64,000 nucleotides of DNA from Armatimonas rosea (GTDB taxonomy: Bacteria > Armatimonadota > Armatimonadia > Armatimonadales > Armatimonadaceae): NCBI RefSeq assembly GCF_014202505.1, contig NZ_JACHGW010000001.1, positions 496,001-560,000 of the forward strand. Reading direction: 5' to 3'. The position numbers and the translations under genes are program-made. Positions within the stretch are counted from its first letter, which is position 1. Each line of letters begins with the position of its first letter. Positions 5,968-29,228 of this stretch are shown here, one piece after another. Under the pieces are notes generated by a model. It was not told the origin of the DNA. It ran no database searches and saw only the letters and a program-made list of their open reading frames with translations.

Positions 5968-6021
5968 CCCCTCATTATGGCTGGAACGGCCTTCGTGTCG
6001 GAGCCTGCGACGACAGCAAGA

Positions 6022-6065
6022 CGCCCCCGTTTATGGGGGCGAGACGCCCCCCTCCAACGGGGGCG
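6022..6065. repeat. Twin GC-rich hairpins between GH44 and GH81 genes
   Basis: Two near-identical palindromes sit side by side. 6022-6041 pairs CGCCCCC with GGGGGCG around a short loop, and 6045-6065 repeats the same arms with a different loop. Neither is followed by a T run, so a rho-independent terminator is not supported; an mRNA processing or stability role is possible. Confidence 0.5.
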
Positions 6066-6113
6066 ACCAAACCGAGAAGGTCATCCCCGTTTGGAACGCG
6101 AATCTGACAGGTA

Positions 6114-8339: not shown

Positions 8340-11300
8340 GGACAAAGGGTGCCCAGTAGTACGGGTGTGCGTGCTTTTGGCTCTGCAGGAGCGTGAGCGC
8401 CGCCTGCCGCAATGCCGCACCCTTGCCCTGTTTCTTGGTGGCTAAGTTGCTGTAGAATCCCGCCATGAGTGTCGCCGTGCTGGCATCGTCCACGGCCCAC
8501 TGGCTCACCACTTGTGTCGGGCAGCCTGCGACAAAGAGCGCCCAGGTGAGGCCAATCACGCCATCCCCGGTTCGCTGAACGCCCCGCGCTGTGTTACACG
8601 CGGACAACACAACCATTTCCGCTGACAAGTCCAAGTCGAAGATCTCCCGTGCTGTGAGAAAGCCATCGTCCTTGCTGCCCGAGCTCGGTTGTGCCAGCAC
8701 GAGGGAAGAGAGAAGTGGGCTTGCATCATTGAAGAAGCCGTGCGTCGCAAAGTGCAAGTACTTGTACTTGCTGGCTTCCAGCTTTGCTCTGCCTTCTTGC
8801 GCCGCGCTGCCGGTCATGAGAGTTGCGGTTGGGAAGAGCTTCTTGAGGGCATCGGCCTCTCGTTGTGTGCCCGGAAGTGCGACAATGGCCTTGCCCCGTG
8901 AGACGCTATCGAAAGCACGGGAGGGAGAGTCAATGGGTCTGCTTGGTGTGTCGATGGGCCGGGAGGGAGTATCGATAGGCCGCGACGGTGTGTCGATGGG
9001 CCGACTTGGCGTATCTATCGGCCGGGAGGGGGTGTCGATCGGACGGCTTGGTGTATCAATGGGACGGCTTGGCGTGTCGATAGGCCTTTGTCCGGGTAGA
9101 TTGTCCAGATCGCCGAAGCGCTTGGTTGAGCCGAAGTCTGGGTTGGCGATTGCGAGTAGGGTTTGCGTGGGTTGCTTTCGATCTGCCTTCACCGTCAGCG
9201 CGGCTTGGACGCCGGTTGCGGAGTAGGCGTAGGAAATCTCGTAGCGCTGTGCGAGGAACTGGCCGTTCATGAGCAAGGCTTGAAACGGGACATCCCAGAG
9301 CGCTCCGTCGGGGCAGATGACGAGGCGCTTGACGCCCGTGAGCTGCTTTGCAGCCGGGGCGAGCAGGAGCTTGTGGAGCTCGGTGGCGAGCGGTTTGTAG
9401 TCCTTGCGCGGGTCGGCACAGGCGGAGCGAAGGGCCGTCGCCTTACTGACCAAGCTCTTGTAGACAATGGGGAGGATAAATGCGTTTACTCCTTTTGAGG
9501 TGACAACGAAGAGGGCCAGCTTCTCTTGACTCAGCACAATGTAGTCCAGAAGTGCCGTGTCGACCGGAAGGAGTTTGGCAATATCGGCGAGGTTTGCCGT
9601 CTTGGCGGCACGTTTTTGGGCGAACTCGGGATGACGGGAGTAGAGTGTGTCAGTGAGGGTTTGGAGGGCACGCTCGGTTTTGATCAGCTCTTCTTTCAGT
9701 GCGGCGTAGCGCTTCTTCGCCCCGACCTCGTTCTCTACCCCTTCTCTCACCATCTGAGCGTTGATAAAGTTAGCTTGTTGTTTGAGATCCTGCTCTTGTG
9801 CCCGCTCCTCGGGAGTTAGTGAGCCACTTAGCTCCACCCGGCCCGCCGCCAGTAGGTCTAGCAAACCCCGCGCCTTGGTCTTCTGTGCCAGTGCAAAGGC
9901 CTCCTCCCCTTGGCGAAGGTGCAAGAGTAGCTCCAAGTAGTGGTAGTAGGCGGTAAGGTTTGCCGTGAGGAGGGCGCTCTTGGCCTCCGTGTAGCCACCG
10001 AGCTGGGTGCGCTGGCTCTCGTAGAAGGCCACGGCCTTCTGGAAGTAGGGGAGGGCTTGGGAGTACTTTCGTGAGTTGCGCAAGACAATCCCGAGAGTAT
10101 AGAGCACATCTGCCTCTCCTTTTCGGCTGCCCACGGACTGATAGAGGTTACGTGCCTGCTCCAGGAGAGTGAGAGCCTTCTCCACTTGTTTTGTATTGGC
10201 CGCAACCGCGCCCAGGCTAGCGAGGACATCAGCCTCAAGCGCCGTGCGACCACTTGCTCGAAGGAGCCGAAGGGCGCTCTCGAAGTAGGTGCGGGCTTTG
10301 GCAAAGTTGGCTTGTGCGTGGTAGGTCGCCCCGATATTCCGAAGCGTATTGCCCTCGCCGTTTTTGCTACCCATCGCTCGGTAGACCGTGAGGGCTTTCT
10401 CGTAGGTGCGGAGGGCAGCGGCGTGTTCCCCGAGGGCCTGATGGAGCGTCCCGAGCGAGTTGAGGGTGTTGGCCTCGCCACTGCGTTGCTGGATGGCCTG
10501 ATAGAGCGTGAGGGCTTGCCCAAAGAACTCTTTTGCCTTAGCGGGCTGGCTGAGTCGCAGGTAGACATTGCCGATTCCTTGGACAGTGTTGGCCTCGCCG
10601 CTCTTGTCCCCGATCCCTCGGTGAAGCAGGAGGGACTGCTGGAAGTTGCTGAGGGCCTGTGGGAACTGGCCAAGGGCGCTCTGGAGGGTAGCGAGGCCAT
10701 GGAGGGACGCCGCCTCGCCGTAGAGGTTGCTACGGGTACGGCAGAGCACCAGCGCTTTCTCGAACGCCTCTAGCGCCTTCAAGGGCTGGCCTGCTTCCGA
10801 GTAGATCTCGCCCAAGAGCCTCTGGATATCCCCCTCACTCTCGGTGTCGCCGATAGATTTCTTCAGGGCAATGGTCTGCTCCAGATACTTCAGTGCCTTC
10901 GCGGGCTCCCCAAGGGTGGAGTAGAGATTGCTGATATTGCCCAGCGTGTTGGCCTCGAAGTTCTTGTTGCCCGTCGCTTGGTGGACAGGCAGGGCTTGCA
11001 GGTAGGTTTCCAACGCCTTGTCCGGCTTTCCAAGCTGGGTATAGACAATCCCGATATTGGTGAGGGTGGCCCCTTCGCCATTCTTATTACCGAGGTCGCG
11101 GAAGAGGGGGAGAACCTGCTGGTAGTACGCCAGCGCCTTGGGAAAAAGCCCCTGGTTGAGTGAGAGGATCCCCAGATTTCCGAGCGTGTTGGCCTCGCCT
11201 GCTCGGTCTTTGCGTTCTTGGTAGAGCGTGAGCGCTTTCTGGTAGTTGTCCTCCGCCTCTTGAGGACGGCCTTGGTTCATCAGGACAAAGCCAAGATAGC

Positions 11301-11472
11301 TGAGGGTGACCACCTCGCTGGAGCGATCTTTTTGGGAGCGTGCTTGGGTGAGAGCACTCTGCAAGAGGCGTAGTGCCTCAGGGAAGTTGCGCTGGCGCTG
11401 GGCATCCAGGGCGCGATCCAGCAAGGCCTGGACCTCGGGGTTGGGTTTTGTCTGTGCTGGGATGGAAGTCAT
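8320..11472 (-). CDS. TPR-CHAT caspase-like protease, paralogue 2, with RPIDTPS repeat tract
   Basis: 1050 aa. Residues from about 10 to 500 are tandem tetratricopeptide repeats with the pattern GEANTLGNLG and similar. A coiled region follows, then a C-terminal CHAT domain. The catalytic dyad is visible as His911 in HFATHG and Cys959 in VLSACNTARG. Between IANPDFGSTKRFG and LPGTQREAD, residues 796-858 are nine 7-residue units: seven RPIDTPS, one RPIDSPS and one degenerate RAFDSVS. CHAT proteins are caspase-like proteases, often used in bacterial immunity or programmed death; the TPR part is expected to sense or bind a partner. It lies 34 bases after its paralogue and has its own TATAAT 10 bases before the ATG. 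No target is evident. Confidence 0.85.
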   Translation of the reverse strand: MTSIPAQTKPNPEVQALLDRALDAQRQRNFPEALRLLQSALTQARSQKDRSSEVVTLSYLGFVLMNQGRPQEAEDNYQKALTLYQERKDRAGEANTLGNLGILSLNQGLFPKALAYYQQVLPLFRDLGNKNGEGATLTNIGIVYTQLGKPDKALETYLQALPVHQATGNKNFEANTLGNISNLYSTLGEPAKALKYLEQTIALKKSIGDTESEGDIQRLLGEIYSEAGQPLKALEAFEKALVLCRTRSNLYGEAASLHGLATLQSALGQFPQALSNFQQSLLLHRGIGDKSGEANTVQGIGNVYLRLSQPAKAKEFFGQALTLYQAIQQRSGEANTLNSLGTLHQALGEHAAALRTYEKALTVYRAMGSKNGEGNTLRNIGATYHAQANFAKARTYFESALRLLRASGRTALEADVLASLGAVAANTKQVEKALTLLEQARNLYQSVGSRKGEADVLYTLGIVLRNSRKYSQALPYFQKAVAFYESQRTQLGGYTEAKSALLTANLTAYYHYLELLLHLRQGEEAFALAQKTKARGLLDLLAAGRVELSGSLTPEERAQEQDLKQQANFINAQMVREGVENEVGAKKRYAALKEELIKTERALQTLTDTLYSRHPEFAQKRAAKTANLADIAKLLPVDTALLDYIVLSQEKLALFVVTSKGVNAFILPIVYKSLVSKATALRSACADPRKDYKPLATELHKLLLAPAAKQLTGVKRLVICPDGALWDVPFQALLMNGQFLAQRYEISYAYSATGVQAALTVKADRKQPTQTLLAIANPDFGSTKRFGDLDNLPGQRPIDTPSRPIDTPSRPIDTPSRPIDTPSRPIDTPSRPIDTPSRPIDTPSRPIDSPSRAFDSVSRGKAIVALPGTQREADALKKLFPTATLMTGSAAQEGRAKLEASKYKYLHFATHGFFNDASPLLSSLVLAQPSSGSKDDGFLTAREIFDLDLSAEMVVLSACNTARGVQRTGDGVIGLTWALFVAGCPTQVVSQWAVDDASTATLMAGFYSNLATKKQGKGAALRQAALTLLQSQKHAHPYYWAPFVLMGDWR
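8899..9087 (-). repeat. In-frame 21-bp tandem repeats encoding RPID[T/S]PS (paralogue 2)
   Basis: Nine consecutive 21-base units on the minus strand. Eight encode RPIDTPS or RPIDSPS and the last encodes RAFDSVS. Codon usage varies between units (for example Arg as AGG, CGT, CGG or AGA), so the peptide is conserved better than the DNA. The tract is inserted in the CHAT domain just before the conserved LPGT. Confidence 0.95.
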
Positions 11473-11482
11473 CTCAAGCGGA

Positions 11483-11488
11483 ATTATA
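11483..11488 (-). promoter_or_regulatory. Perfect -10 box (TATAAT) for TPR-CHAT paralogue 2
   Basis: TATAAT on the minus strand ends 10 bases before the ATG at 11472, within the 34-base gap after paralogue 1. The transcript would be leaderless or nearly so. There is no convincing -35 box. Confidence 0.55.
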
Positions 11489-11506
11489 ACATGGGGGTGC
11501 TAACGG

Positions 11507-14413
11507 CTATCTCCAGTCGCCCATGAGGACAAAGGGTGCCCAGTAGTAGGGATGCGCGTGCTTTGGATTCTGCAGGAGCGCGAGCGATGCCTGCCGCAAT
11601 GCCGCCCCCTTGCCCTGTTTCTTGGTGGCTAAGTTGCCGTAGAATCCCGCCATGAGTGTCGCTGTGCTGGCATCGTCCACGGCCCACTGGCTCACGACTT
11701 GGGTCGGGCAGCCTGCGACAAAGAGCGCCCAGGTGAGGCCAATCACGCCATCCCCGGTTCGCTGAACGCCCCGCGCCGTGTTACACGCGGACAACACAAC
11801 CATTTCCGCTGACAAGTCCAAGTCGAAGATCTCCCGTGCTGTGAGAAAGCCATCGTCTTTGCTGCCCGCGCTTGGCTGTGCCAGCACGAGGGAAGAGAGC
11901 AAGGGAGAGGCATCGTTGAAGAAGCCGTGGGTCGCAAAGTGCAGAAAACGGAATTTCGTTGCTTCTGCCTTTGCGGTGCTTTCCTGTGCCGCGCTGCCCG
12001 TCATCAGGGTTGCGCTGGGAAAGAGCCGCTTGAGTGCATCGGCTTCGCGCTGTGTGCCCGGAAGTGCGACAATGGCCTTGCCCCGTGAGACGATGTCAAA
12101 AGCGCGTGATGGAGAGTCAATGGGACGAGAGGGTGAATCGATAGGCCTAGACGGTGAATCGATAGGCCTAGACGGTGTATCAATAGGTCTGCTCGGCGTA
12201 TCAATGGGCCGTGATGGTGTGTCGATGGGGCGACTCGGAGTATCAATGGGACGTTGCCCTGGCAGGTTATCGAGGTCGCCGAAGCGCTTGGTTGAGCCGA
12301 AGTCTGGGTTTGCGATTGCGAGTAGGGTTTGCGTGGGTTGCTTGCGTTTGGCTTTAGTGGTCAGTGCGGCCTGTGCGCCTGTTGCGGAGTAGGCGTAGGA
12401 AATCTCGTAGCGCTGTGCGAGGAACTGGCCTCCGGTGAGCAGAGCTTGAAACGGGACATCCCAGAGCGCTCCGTCGGGGCAGATGACGAGGCGCTTGACG
12501 CCCGTGAGCTGCTTTGCTGCCGGAGTAAGCAGGAGCTTGTGAAGCTCCGTGGCGAGCGGTTTGTAGTCCTTGCGCGGGTCGGCGCAGGCGGCGCGAAATG
12601 TTGCGGCTTGGGTGACGAGCTTGGGGTAGCTAAGCGGCAGGGTGAGTGCCTTGACCCCACGGTGCGTCGCGACAAAGAGCGCCAGTGTCTTTTCGGAGAG
12701 CACGACATACTCCAGTAAGGCCGTGTCGGGGGGGAGGAGCGTGGCGAGCCCGGACAGAGTGACGGTCTTGGCGGCCTGAGCCTGCGCAAGCCGCGGATGG
12801 GTGGCGTAGAGGGTATCGGTGAGGGTCTGGAGCTGGCTCTCGGTCTTTTGGAGCTCCTGCTTGAGCGCGGCGTAGCGCTGCTTCGCGCCCACCTCGTTCT
12901 CGACTCCCTCCTTGACCATCTGCTGGTTCAGCGTATCCGCTCTCTCGCGGAGGGCCTGGAGTTTTTGGCGCTCGTCGGGCTGGAGCTCGGCGCTCAGATC
13001 GACTCGTCCCGCGGCCATGAGGTCGAGGAGCGAGCGTGCCTTGGTCTGCTGGGCGACCTCGAAGGCACGCGCCTCCTTGCCCTGCGCCAGCAGGAGCTGC
13101 AGGTAGCGGTAGTAGATCTCCAGGGTGCCTGCCAGGACGGTCGACTTGGCCTCGGTCAGCCCCCCGAGCCGGGTGCGGAGCCGCTCTAGCGACTCGATGG
13201 CCTGGGCGTAGTGCGCCTCCGCGCTGGCGGGACGCTTCAGCTGCTCGTCGGTGAGGGCGAGCTGGCTGAGGGCGCTGATCTCCCCCGTACGCTCGCCTGT
13301 CTCACGGTGGATCGCAAGCGCTTGTTGGAGGTAGGGGAGGGCCTTTTGGGGCTGCTGGAGCGCACTATAGGCCTTGCCGACACTGGTGAGGGTCTTCCCC
13401 TCCCCGCTACGGTAGCGGAGGGCCTGAAAGAGTGTGAGCGCCTGCTGGAAGGCGGCGAGTGCCTTCTGCGGCTGGCCCTGCTTCAGGTAGCTATCTGCCT
13501 GGTTGTGGAGGACGGTCGCCTCCCCTACCTTGTTGCCCAGCGCCCGGTAGAGCGTCCCCGCTTGCCCAAAGAGCTCCTGCGCTCGCTGAGGCTGGCCCTG
13601 CGTCTTGTGGAGAATGGCCATGTTGTTGAGGACATTGGCCTCGTTGTGCTTCTCCCCGGCCGCACGAAACAGGGGGAGGGCACGCTGGTAGAACTCCAGG
13701 GCCTTCTGTGGCTGCCCGAGCATGTCGTAGAGGTTACCGAGGTTGTTGGCGGTCTGGGCCAGTGTTGTCTTGTTTTTGAGCGTCTCCAGAGTGGGCAGGG
13801 CCTTGAGGTAGAACTCCAGGGCCTTCTGCGGCTGGCTCAGTGCCTGGTAGACATCGCCCAGCTTGCTCAGAATCTCCGCCTCCCGGGCCGTGTCGCCGAG
13901 GGCGCGGGTGGGGGGCAGGGACTGCTCCAGGTACTCCAGCGCCTTGAGCGGCTGGCCGATCATGTTCGCCAGCACCCCAAGGTTGCTCAGGGCCATCGCC
14001 TCCCCCTTGGCATCCTTGTTGGCGCGGTGGACACGCAGGGCACCCTCAAAGGACTCTTGGGACTTTTTCGGATCGTTCTGCTCGACGTAGAGCAGGCCCA
14101 GGAAGTTGAGGCTCACGCCCTCTTGCCGCAGGGAGCCTAGCTCGTGGTAGAGGGGGATGGCCTGCTGGTAGTACTCGATCGCCTTCGCGGTCTGGCCCTG
14201 GCGGCGGTAGATTCCGGCGGTGATGTAGAGGCTACCGGCCTCCCCGATCCGGTCCTTAAGCATCCGCGCTTTTTCGATGGCTTGGGAGTAGAGCTGTAGG
14301 GCTTTCTCGGGGTCTCCCGCGGAGTTCGCTTGCTGCGCCTGCCGCACAAGCTCCATGACCTCAGGAGCTGCCTTCTCCAAGACTTGCTGCATGCTATTGC
14401 GATTAAGAGTCAT
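11507..14413 (-). CDS. TPR-CHAT caspase-like protease, paralogue 1, with RPIDTPS repeat tract
   Basis: 968 aa with the same plan as its downstream paralogue. TPRs run to about residue 440 (units such as GQPQKALEFYQRALPL), then a helical linker, then a CHAT domain with His829 in HFATHG and Cys877 in VLSACNTARG. The repeat tract at residues 721-776 has four RPIDTPS, three RPIDSPS and one RAFDIVS. The last roughly 250 residues are almost identical to the paralogue, whereas the TPR halves are clearly divergent, so the genes are a tandem duplication with a homogenised effector part. It begins 32 bases after the cyclase-STAND gene, with a TATCAT box 6 bases before its ATG. Confidence 0.85.
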   Translation of the reverse strand: MTLNRNSMQQVLEKAAPEVMELVRQAQQANSAGDPEKALQLYSQAIEKARMLKDRIGEAGSLYITAGIYRRQGQTAKAIEYYQQAIPLYHELGSLRQEGVSLNFLGLLYVEQNDPKKSQESFEGALRVHRANKDAKGEAMALSNLGVLANMIGQPLKALEYLEQSLPPTRALGDTAREAEILSKLGDVYQALSQPQKALEFYLKALPTLETLKNKTTLAQTANNLGNLYDMLGQPQKALEFYQRALPLFRAAGEKHNEANVLNNMAILHKTQGQPQRAQELFGQAGTLYRALGNKVGEATVLHNQADSYLKQGQPQKALAAFQQALTLFQALRYRSGEGKTLTSVGKAYSALQQPQKALPYLQQALAIHRETGERTGEISALSQLALTDEQLKRPASAEAHYAQAIESLERLRTRLGGLTEAKSTVLAGTLEIYYRYLQLLLAQGKEARAFEVAQQTKARSLLDLMAAGRVDLSAELQPDERQKLQALRERADTLNQQMVKEGVENEVGAKQRYAALKQELQKTESQLQTLTDTLYATHPRLAQAQAAKTVTLSGLATLLPPDTALLEYVVLSEKTLALFVATHRGVKALTLPLSYPKLVTQAATFRAACADPRKDYKPLATELHKLLLTPAAKQLTGVKRLVICPDGALWDVPFQALLTGGQFLAQRYEISYAYSATGAQAALTTKAKRKQPTQTLLAIANPDFGSTKRFGDLDNLPGQRPIDTPSRPIDTPSRPIDTPSRPIDTPSRPIDSPSRPIDSPSRPIDSPSRAFDIVSRGKAIVALPGTQREADALKRLFPSATLMTGSAAQESTAKAEATKFRFLHFATHGFFNDASPLLSSLVLAQPSAGSKDDGFLTAREIFDLDLSAEMVVLSACNTARGVQRTGDGVIGLTWALFVAGCPTQVVSQWAVDDASTATLMAGFYGNLATKKQGKGAALRQASLALLQNPKHAHPYYWAPFVLMGDWR
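12086..12253 (-). repeat. In-frame 21-bp tandem repeats encoding RPID[T/S]PS (paralogue 1)
   Basis: Eight consecutive 21-base units on the minus strand: four RPIDTPS, three RPIDSPS and a final RAFDIVS. It sits at the same place in the CHAT domain as in the paralogue. Unit number differs between the two genes (eight versus nine), as expected for a tract that expands and contracts. Confidence 0.95.
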
Positions 14414-25921: not shown

Positions 25922-25936
25922 GCACCAAAAACCAAA

Positions 25937-25973
25937 AAGGCCCCCGGCGCAACCGCGCCGGGGGCCTTTTTTT
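25937..25973. terminator. Bidirectional rho-independent terminator
   Basis: GGCCCCCGGCGC (25939-25950) and GCGCCGGGGGCC (25955-25966) form a perfect 12-bp stem with an AACC loop. T-run follows on the plus strand, and an A-rich left side supplies the T-run for minus-strand transcripts. It serves rplA and the convergent membrane protein gene, whose stop codon overlaps the T-run. Confidence 0.93.
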
Positions 25974-26624: not shown

Positions 26625-26660
26625 AAAAAGCCCCGGAGAGCACGCTCTCCAGGGCTTTTT
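26625..26660 (-). terminator. Rho-independent terminator after coiled-coil hypothetical gene
   Basis: AAAAAGCCC-GGAGAG and CTCTCC-GGGCTTTTT form a stem with one mismatch and a CACG loop. It lies 17 bases beyond the stop of the minus-strand gene ending at 26677. Confidence 0.8.
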
Positions 26661-27533: not shown

Positions 27534-27539
27534 TAAAAT
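27534..27539 (+). promoter_or_regulatory. -10-like box (TAAAAT) for def
   Basis: TAAAAT ends 10 bases before the ATG at 27550. It overlaps an earlier in-frame ATG at 27538, which argues that the later ATG is the true start. Confidence 0.4.
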
Positions 27540-27549
27540 GGGGGCTTGT

Positions 27550-28113
27550 ATGGCTTCTGAAAACCTCTCGGACCTGGCGGCAAAGTACAAGGATATTCCT
27601 TTTGATGATAGCCGCGTGGTCAAGTACAAAGAGACTCCTGGCTGGGAAGTGCTCCTCAAGACCGCTGCGGAGGTCAAGGTAGTGGACACGGAGCTGCGGG
27701 CTCTGATCGCGGAGATGGCCGATATCATGTACGCCGCGCACGGGGTGGGGCTGGCGGCTCCTCAGGTGGGGCAGAGCATTCGCCTGCTGGTCTACGATGC
27801 GGGAGCGGGGCTGAAGGTGCTCATCAATCCCCAGATCTCCAAGGCAAAGGGCGAGCAGTACGAGCCTGAGGAGGGCTGTCTCTCGATCCCTGGTCTGCGC
27901 GGTGTGGTCCGTCGCCCCAGCCAGATCTTTGTGCAGGCGCTCAATGGCAGCGGTCACCCCGTGCGCTTCAAGGCCCGTGATTTTGAGGCCCGGATTATCT
28001 GCCACGAGGTCGACCACCTCAATGGCATTCTCTTCACCGACCTCGCCGATCCCAAGACCCTCCACATGCTCACGCCCGAGGAGCAGGCCTCCGAGCGCGC
28101 TCCTGCCGAGTAG
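27550..28113 (+). CDS. def: Peptide deformylase
   Basis: 187 aa. All three motifs are present: GVGLAAPQVG, EEGCLSIPG with the metal-binding Cys, and ICHEVDHLNGILF with the HExxH metal histidines. It removes the formyl group from the initiator methionine of new proteins and works opposite fmt, which follows. The start at 27550 (MASENLSDL) is preferred over an ATG at 27538 on promoter grounds. Between def and fmt lies a large inverted-repeat element. Confidence 0.95.
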   Translation: MASENLSDLAAKYKDIPFDDSRVVKYKETPGWEVLLKTAAEVKVVDTELRALIAEMADIMYAAHGVGLAAPQVGQSIRLLVYDAGAGLKVLINPQISKAKGEQYEPEEGCLSIPGLRGVVRRPSQIFVQALNGSGHPVRFKARDFEARIICHEVDHLNGILFTDLADPKTLHMLTPEEQASERAPAE

Positions 28114-28117
28114 CATC

Positions 28118-28262
28118 TTAGATCGCCCCGGTTAGAGCGGGGCGTCAACGAGCGCTTCGCGCTGGGAAGGGCTTCGCCCATAAAATATTCGGGATGGCCG
28201 AAGGCCTTTGCGGCGGAGCTTGCGACGCCCGTTGACGCCCCGCTCTAACCGGGGCGATCTAA
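28118..28262. repeat. 145-bp element with 33-bp perfect inverted arms and internal hairpins
   Basis: 28118-28150 is the exact reverse complement of 28230-28262. The 79-base interior holds three further perfect small hairpins: AGCGC-TTC-GCGCT (28151-28163), GGGC-TTC-GCCC (28169-28179) and GGCC-GAA-GGCC (28196-28206). The RNA would fold as a long stem closed by a multi-branched loop. It sits between def and fmt, with fmt starting 21 bases beyond the right arm. No ORF or transposase is inside. It could be a MITE-like repeat or a structured RNA. Confidence 0.85.
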
Positions 28263-28272
28263 TGGAGGGCGA

Positions 28273-28278
28273 TAGAAT
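28273..28278 (+). promoter_or_regulatory. -10-like box (TAGAAT) for fmt
   Basis: TAGAAT ends 5 bases before the fmt ATG and just outside the right arm of the inverted-repeat element, so fmt could be transcribed separately from def. Confidence 0.4.
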
Positions 28279-28283
28279 TCAGC

Positions 28284-29228
28284 ATGCGTGTTATCTTCTT
28301 TGGAACCTCTCCCTTTGCGGTGCCGACCCTGCAAGCGCTTCATGACAGTGCCCACACGGTTCTTGCCGTCGTGACCCAGCCGGATCGGCCGGCGGGGCGT
28401 GGGATGCAGCTGGCGGAGTCTGCGGTCAAGAAAGCGGCGCGCGCACTGGGCTACGAGACCGTCTTGCAGCCCGAGAGAGTGCGCCGCAAGCCCTTCCCCG
28501 AGGAGCTGGCGGCGCTGGAGCCGGATGCGCTGGTCGTGGTCAGCTTTGGGCAGATTATTCCGCAGCGGGTGCTGGATATCCCACGACACGGCGGCATCAA
28601 TGTGCACGCCTCGCTCCTGCCTCGCTGGCGGGGTGCGGCTCCGATCCACCGTGCGATCATGGCGGGCGATACTGAGACCGGGGTCGCGACCATGCGGATG
28701 GAGGCGACTCTCGATACCGGGCCGGTCTTTCTAGAGGCGCGCCTTCCGATCACCCCTGATGATACGACGCTTCTCTTGGAGCCTCGCCTGGCGGAGGCGG
28801 GGGCGCTGCTCTTGGTGCAGACCTTGGATCGCCTTGAGCAGGAGCCTGGCTGGGAGCCGACGCCGCAGCGGGAGGAAGGCATGACCTACGCTACCATGCT
28901 CACCCGTGAGGACGGCTTTCTGGACCCGACTGCGGAGAGCGCGGCGCTCTTGGCCAATCGCGTCCGTGCTCTCACCCCTCGTCCGGCGGGCGTGCTCCTG
29001 CTGGTGGGGAAAGAAGTGAAGGTCTTGGAGGCGCAGGTCCTGCAGGGTGAGGAGCAAGATGTCCCGGGGACCGTGGTGGCGCTCACCAAGGCGGGGATAG
29101 AGCTGGCAACCCTCGCAGGGCGCCTGCGCCTTGTGACCGTGCAGCCGGTGGGCAAGCCCGTGATGGCGGCGGCGGCGTATGCGAATGGTGCGCGGCTCAG
29201 GCTCGGGGACCTCGCGAGCCGCCCATAA
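28284..29228 (+). CDS. fmt: Methionyl-tRNA formyltransferase
   Basis: 314 aa, standard length. N-terminus RVIFFGTSPFAVPTLQAL; the catalytic loop has NVHASLLPRWRGAAPI and includes the conserved Asn and His, followed by GVATMRMEATLDTGPV. A C-terminal OB-like domain binds tRNA. It formylates Met-tRNA(fMet) with 10-formyl-THF. def is upstream, the common pairing. Confidence 0.96.
   Translation: MRVIFFGTSPFAVPTLQALHDSAHTVLAVVTQPDRPAGRGMQLAESAVKKAARALGYETVLQPERVRRKPFPEELAALEPDALVVVSFGQIIPQRVLDIPRHGGINVHASLLPRWRGAAPIHRAIMAGDTETGVATMRMEATLDTGPVFLEARLPITPDDTTLLLEPRLAEAGALLLVQTLDRLEQEPGWEPTPQREEGMTYATMLTREDGFLDPTAESAALLANRVRALTPRPAGVLLLVGKEVKVLEAQVLQGEEQDVPGTVVALTKAGIELATLAGRLRLVTVQPVGKPVMAAAAYANGARLRLGDLASRP

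Follow-up and report, generated by a model that had tools for sequence, protein, structure and literature searches.

Introduction

As described in the cited sections of two reports, REPINs and BIMEs are inverted pairs of palindromic units with a variable spacer, dispersed between genes and bearing compensatory changes, and a Y1/HUH gene is flanked by such units (PMC3116915, PMC6006769). Another arrangement, outlined in the cited part of PMC3733652, is that of the TIRYTs and TIRtrons, in which a tyrosine transposase gene lies between long terminal inverted repeats (Di Nocera 2013); some of these repeats are self-complementary and occur as dispersed dimers. According to the cited portion of PMC6006769, a later classification assigned 20 of the 26 TIRYTs then described to TnpAY1 subclass 2.1, which has a helix-turn-helix tail. 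The CGTC-tagged REPs have stems of 8-9 bp, loops of 4-5 nt and an unpaired tag, and the cited part of PMC3733652 names no transposase for them. TnpAY1 subclass 1.2 is characterised by DH[IV]H, by Y---Q--HH with QKEHH, by a length of ~150 aa, by a conserved C-terminal domain of its own and by several divergent copies per genome; in the sections cited here, Table 1 has "no" for this subclass under REP, and the end structures typical of IS200 are said to be generally absent (PMC6006769). A literature search by title and start of abstract, with most subscription papers and all preprints outside its scope, returned no published work linking subclass 1.2 to repeats. We describe here an element that is very probably a REPIN-like, non-autonomous mobile element mobilised by a Y1 transposase; its movement we infer from sequence.

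Results

The window, meaning the whole 64-kb stretch of DNA that was analysed (bases 496001-560000 of contig 1 of the 6.33-Mb source genome, G000), carries the element between two genes that we take to be def and fmt, in agreement with the earlier note on this DNA. That note had reported a 145-bp sequence with 33-bp perfect inverted arms and three inner hairpins with TTC or GAA loops. The arms (28118-28150 and 28230-28262) match each other's reverse complement at all 33 bases (97% over 37 nt), and the three inner perfect stems are present with loops TTC, TTC and GAA. The structure is far beyond chance: the RNA fold has -109.4 kcal/mol compared with -65.4 +/- 4.7 for shuffled sequences (z -9.5; reached by 0 of 200 shuffles), the DNA fold has a z of -12.4, and the element is the longest inverted repeat within 300 bp across the window. 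The description is correct as sequence and incomplete as an account of the element, which has six hairpins, three per half, in a longer insert (28117-28280). Each 33-bp arm folds as its own hairpin, CGCCCCG-GTTAGAG-CGGGGCG, and an additional right-hand stem, GGCG/CGCC (H5 in Table 1), mirrors the first inner stem. When the right half is reverse-complemented, it and the left half prove to be variants of a single ~60-nt unit consisting of H1 (7-bp stem, with the loop GTTAGAG conserved as GTTRGAG in most copies), H2 (AGC...GCT) and H3 (GGSC-TTC-GSCC). The basic unit is this three-hairpin module, in an inverted pair around a 12-bp spacer, and not a long palindrome. The outer right layer of the insert holds an outer repeat resembling GGCGAT and, at 28273-28278, a -10-like TAGAAT, and the exact ends of the element are undefined because the outer partial repeats vary.

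Table 1. Features of the element and of its two neighbouring genes, in window coordinates.
Feature	Coordinates	Strand	Basis or remark
Whole inserted segment, 164 bp	28117..28280	.	absent from sister species G001
Flanking AGCAT	28112-28116 and 28281-28285		either side of insert
Left three-hairpin unit	28122..28181	+	covariance model R1, 74.0 bits
Hairpin H1, 7-bp stem, loop GTTAGAG	28124..28144	+	compensatory changes in stem
Hairpin H2 (AGC...GCT)	28151..28163	+	copy alignment
Hairpin H3 (GGGC-TTC-GCCC)	28169..28179	+	every pair formed in 30/30 copies
Variable spacer, 12 bp, AAAATATTCGGG	28182..28193	.	spacers of 93 pairs compared
Right three-hairpin unit, inverted	28194..28258	-	R1, 81.8 bits
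Hairpin H4, mirror of H3, GGCC-GAA-GGCC	28196..28206	-	copy alignment
Hairpin H5, mirror of H2	28212..28229	-	copy alignment
Hairpin H6, mirror of H1, loop CTCTAAC	28236..28256	-	copy alignment
Outer right layer of insert, CTAATGGAGGGCGATAGAATTC	28259..28280	.	within segment absent from G001
def (peptide deformylase), upstream neighbour	27538..28113	+	ORF, putative start codon; tblastn orthologues
fmt (methionyl-tRNA formyltransferase), downstream neighbour	28284..29228	+	ORF; homologues in 17/19 genomes including own

Other structures were seen in the window. A second copy, at 5977-6084, has a single right-hand unit on the minus strand (56.8 bits) next to an additional terminal hairpin; its partner unit is weak (15.3 bits). 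At 25934-25971 and 26625-26660, on either side of a minus-strand ORF, lie two hairpins, perfect or nearly so, that are flanked by runs of A and T and look like putative bidirectional intrinsic terminators. Repeats at multiples of 120 bp (10323-14225) are probably coding repeats, which we presume to be tetratricopeptide-like.

In the sister species G001, the sole other genome of the genus searched, a single base separates the two genes (TAG C ATG), compared with 170 bases in G000; the G001 sequence reads GAGTAGCATGCG and lacks the whole inserted segment. The gap is also at most 3 nt in five of the seven other genomes whose def-fmt region was read in + orientation, so the element does separate genes that are usually translated together, as had been proposed. 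An unrelated inverted repeat, GGGGCTTATCGTAGCGC...GCGCTACGATAAGCCCC, lies in the def-fmt gap of a genome of the same family (G008, L055). The insert places TAGAAT five bases before the fmt ATG, where it might be a candidate leaderless promoter for fmt; no sigma-70 promoter for the new fmt start was identified by a consensus scan of the + strand. A secondary regulatory effect of the element on fmt may exist.

For the comparison with G001, 1.23 Mb of its sequence was set against the window and 107 loci of G000, which gave 17 sites where both flanks or the whole stretch aligned. Six of these are empty in G001 (L001, L005, L028, L040, L096, L138) and six are occupied in both species, one by the same subfamily (L108) and five by different subfamilies, each pair at its own shared intergenic site (G000/G001: L008/L091, L111/L176, L120/L184, L124/L095, L129/L195); one has a solo hairpin in G001 (L099), and four differ otherwise (L015, L019, L025, L155). 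Because six sites are occupied in both species, five of them by different subfamilies, simple insertion alone is insufficient to account for the pattern, and the shared sites may be hot spots or may reflect conversion of whole elements. The counterpart in G001 of the degenerate unit pair at L099 is one perfect hairpin standing alone, TGATCGCCCCGGTTGGAGCGGGGCGATCA (L090:13440-13600), possibly a simpler, older form. A target-site duplication is hinted at in the window by the AGCAT (5 bp) on both sides of the insert; the flanking overlap is 2 and 0 bp at two other base-exact empty sites, so that no fixed target duplication is seen at these three sites, a small sample with diverged flanks.

The element belongs to a large family. 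BLAST gave at least 81 matches in its own genome (40 of 110 candidates scored, palindromic copies being counted on both strands). A covariance model derived from 28 selected units (R1) was then run on the genome: every one of the 150 candidates scored fits it, so that the family has at least 150 units, those scored lying at 106 sites. Two units lie within 150 bp of each other at 44 of the 106 sites, and in 44/44 they are inverted with H3 inward. Across 102 loci R1 detects 201 units and 93 adjacent pairs, 92 of which have the same inverted orientation, H3 inward. Spacer lengths in the 93 pairs cluster near -2 to 0, 7-13 and 17-23 bp, and one pair overlaps by 15. Of the 93 pairs, 6 have exactly AATTCGGT as spacer and another 7 have ACCGAATT, the same sequence on the opposite strand; recurrent spacers, including AATTCGGT and CCCGAG..ACTCGGG, occur at unrelated places, which suggests that the unit pair spreads whole. 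At least 15 of the 93 pairs join two different typed classes. In the outer flanks of L111, L138, L037 and L030, layered partial copies of the first half-hairpin, ATCGCCCCCGTTNNN, were observed; they lie outside the units, at times two or three in series. That these outer repeats are halves of a target hairpin was considered and rejected, the repeats being located inside the inserted segment at L096 and L138.

A search for further copies and a covariance search in relatives had both been proposed in the earlier note. The family is at more than 100 sites in its own genome; among the relatives, R1 has 97 unit matches in G001, and neither BLAST nor R1 gives any in the other 39 genomes searched across family, order and phylum. 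The family is confined to the genus among the relatives examined. A first DNA-pattern scan of named genomes, from which the source genome was possibly excluded, gave 0 hits.

Covariation was measured on an alignment of 30 copies (A1). Pairing within the six local hairpins amounts to 99.0%, two-sided changes number 67, and the covariation score of 0.250, compared with 0.088 after shuffling, was reached by 0 of 500 shuffles. Arm-to-arm pairing stands at 90.6% in the same 30 copies, in which no arm-to-arm covariation was detected (score 0.064 versus 0.069 shuffled; reached by 407 of 500 shuffles). At one position, H1 has G-C in 16 copies and C-G in 14, and H6 has C-G in 19 and G-C in 11, the position being paired in 30/30 copies in each hairpin; between the left and right units it is paired in only 13 of 30. 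Pairing of the long arms as the conserved feature was thus rejected, as it is without covariation across the copies, and the perfect 33-bp stem of the window copy is incidental because both its units happen to share one subtype. The earlier argument from the perfect long stem, to recent insertion or to selection on RNA structure, is not supported, since the local hairpins covary instead; structural constraint was rightly suspected, and nothing here indicates an RNA role. The simplest reading of the constraint is that the units would serve a transposase as ends in single-stranded DNA.

G000 has seven PF01797 (Y1_Tnp) genes. R1 units stand in inverted orientation on both sides of three of them (L047, L050, L051), at similar distances in the three loci. 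The remaining four sit between other long inverted repeats, whose arms have few or no dispersed copies in the stretches examined, which are biased to unit sites. The Y---Q--HH motif was found in all seven genes. Six proteins were aligned and scanned, the short L052 being left out: DHVH (HUH) and YxxxQKEHH are invariant in the six, all six are over the cut-off of the NCBIfam IS200/IS605 model NF033573, none reaches that of the RAYT model (25-36 bits versus 80), and Y1_Tnp is the sole domain in the Pfam scan. L047 also matches solved IS200-type transposases. Directly inside its right unit lies AATTCTGT, one base off the recurrent 8-nt spacer AATTCGGT, and this near-identity fits loss of the gene between the ends. 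The window's A-type units adjoin a transposase on one side only, at L051, where the other unit is B-type; the exact partner enzyme is uncertain for this reason. Of two intact Y1 genes in G001, neither has strong units alongside, and one has weak matches (20.8 and 21.8 bits). The Y1 frames of L046-L051 begin with, or are preceded by, a conserved stretch, TTTTNTCAGATTTGG...CCGTTATAGGGGCRTG, which may be a coding N-terminus or a promoter.

The surroundings of homologous transposases were examined in the best 80 of 415 homologue loci in named genomes; by motif, 71 of the 80 are of subclass-1.2 type, and 68 of these could be scored. A gene was taken to lie between inverted repeats when a repeat spanning it scored more than 30, a cut-off chosen after inspecting shuffles (maximum 29) and controls (maximum 28). 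By this measure 38 of the 68 genes are positive, as against 0 of 47 control windows, which were shifted outward by 900 bp. The arrangement seen in G000 is therefore widespread, although it is missing at the other 30 of the 68 scored genes. Two or more perfect hairpins were found in the arms of 23 of the 38 (mean 1.76, compared with 0.35 in shuffled arms). By record title the 38 come from Armatimonadetes, Chloroflexi, Cyanobacteria, Gemmatimonadetes, Planctomycetes, Acidobacteria, Proteobacteria, Bacteroidetes, Chlamydiae and Calditrichaceae, with at least three from the window's genus or family (L216, L221, L223); the ranks that we place above these titles are our assumption. In 12 genomes picked as positive, 18 of 19 scored subclass-1.2-type genes have arms. 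Arms were dispersed in two of the three genomes tested. Hormoscilla has 56 matches, with neighbours less than 100 bp apart mostly in same-strand tandem (11/12), and Caldilineaceae has 50, with close neighbours forming inverted pairs in 10/10; the arms of the Kiruna Armatimonadetes genome are barely dispersed (6 matches), indicating that high copy number is not universal. In the other subclasses, one of two subclass-1.1-type and one of four subclass-2-type genes scored have arms, numbers that do not establish the arms as specific to a subclass.

Discussion

In the mechanism that we propose, the substrate of the Y1 transposases would be the unit folded as single-stranded DNA, probably in the lagging-strand template; the enzymes would bind it, cut and rejoin it in the manner of IS200/IS605, and so mobilise the short elements in trans. 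These short elements would have been born by loss of the transposase gene between two end units and would then have spread whole. Selection for recognition would keep the local hairpins while the left and right units diverge.

Among the alternatives, the least improbable is that recombination or template switching between palindromes spreads and homogenises the units, with the transposase genes merely trapped among them. Pairs of mixed subfamily (at least 15 of 93), different subfamilies at one site in two species and the layered outer partial repeats are what it would lead one to expect; nevertheless, the insertions are clean in otherwise collinear DNA, three of the seven transposase genes are bracketed on both sides at similar distances, and the same arrangement recurs around homologous genes in several phyla, and we consider this explanation improbable. 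Slightly less probable again is a classical MITE of a DDE transposase (mariner- or IS5-like, for example), moved through its terminal inverted repeats with target duplication. Against it, the outer ends vary and the inner hairpins are conserved, the three sites with base-exact boundaries show duplications of 5, 2 and 0 bp, and the genes found between units are Y1/HUH rather than DDE, even though the long terminal inverted repeats, the 145-bp size, the many copies and the 5-bp AGCAT on both sides are all in keeping with such an element. The MITE-like insertion proposed in the earlier note was right in kind, given the many copies and the clean empty site in G001; the class of enzyme, the unit and the cause of the symmetry are different. 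The least probable alternative, a structured RNA (5'-UTR or intercistronic regulator, or small RNA) maintained by selection in a transcript, would explain the strong fold and the covariation of the local stems but conflicts with the empty site in the sister species, the many dispersed copies, the lack of any Rfam match in the window at gathering thresholds and the lack of a preferred strand, which follows from the two halves being mirror copies.

A REPIN-like element mobilised by a Y1 enzyme thus remains our preferred reading, and it can be extended. The chances seem to us evenly balanced that subclass 1.2 is a separate HUH system acting on compound, multi-hairpin single-stranded ends, and that it has filled many phyla (by record title Armatimonadota, Chloroflexota, Cyanobacteria, Planctomycetes, Gemmatimonadota and others) with unrecognised REPIN-like inverted pairs. 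A subclass published without a DNA partner gains in this way a concrete, testable candidate substrate, and the abundant palindromic repeats of poorly studied phyla a possible origin. At def-fmt, an insert can be seen to break up two closely spaced genes, and a close relative supplies the empty site as a reference.

How does the element compare with the systems described to date? Like IS200/IS605 (subclass 1.1), it is associated with Y1 proteins over the NCBIfam cut-off and has hairpins at its ends; unlike IS200/IS605, there are long inverted multi-hairpin arms on both sides, the gene copies are divergent rather than near-identical, and the non-autonomous population is far larger. The Y1 genes of G000 resemble TIRYTs and TIRtrons in lying between long terminal inverted repeats with dispersed copies, but their proteins show the subclass 1.2 signature Y---Q--HH, with Y1_Tnp the only Pfam domain in 6/6. 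As far as the cited part of the CGTC REP description goes, the A-type unit is similar in having CGTC after the first hairpin and in forming dimers with variable spacers; it differs in its 7-bp stem, its 7-nt loop and the paired CG of the tag, the B-type unit has no CGTC, and a transposase is linked to the family. The traits given in the cited sections for REPINs and BIMEs with their RAYTs (TnpAREP) are present in the window family, including the inversion of two palindromic units (92 of 93 pairs). The unit, however, has three hairpins where that of a REPIN has one, no conserved GT[AG]G was seen by eye in the 28-unit alignment, where the foot of the A-type is ATCG, and the transposases of G000 fall below the RAYT cut-off and carry Y---Q--HH instead of Y--NP. 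Assigned by motif rather than by published profile or tree, these proteins are like subclass 1.2 in having DHVH and Y---Q--HH with QKEHH, in their length of ~150 aa and in the presence of several divergent copies in one genome; in contrast to the subclass as portrayed in the cited sections, their genes are bracketed by arrays of hairpins, and some of these arrays have copies scattered through the genome. On sequence grounds, this comparison points to an element that would work like a REPIN, outside the GTAG and CGTC REP families as tested, and that is a candidate substrate of TnpAY1 subclass 1.2.
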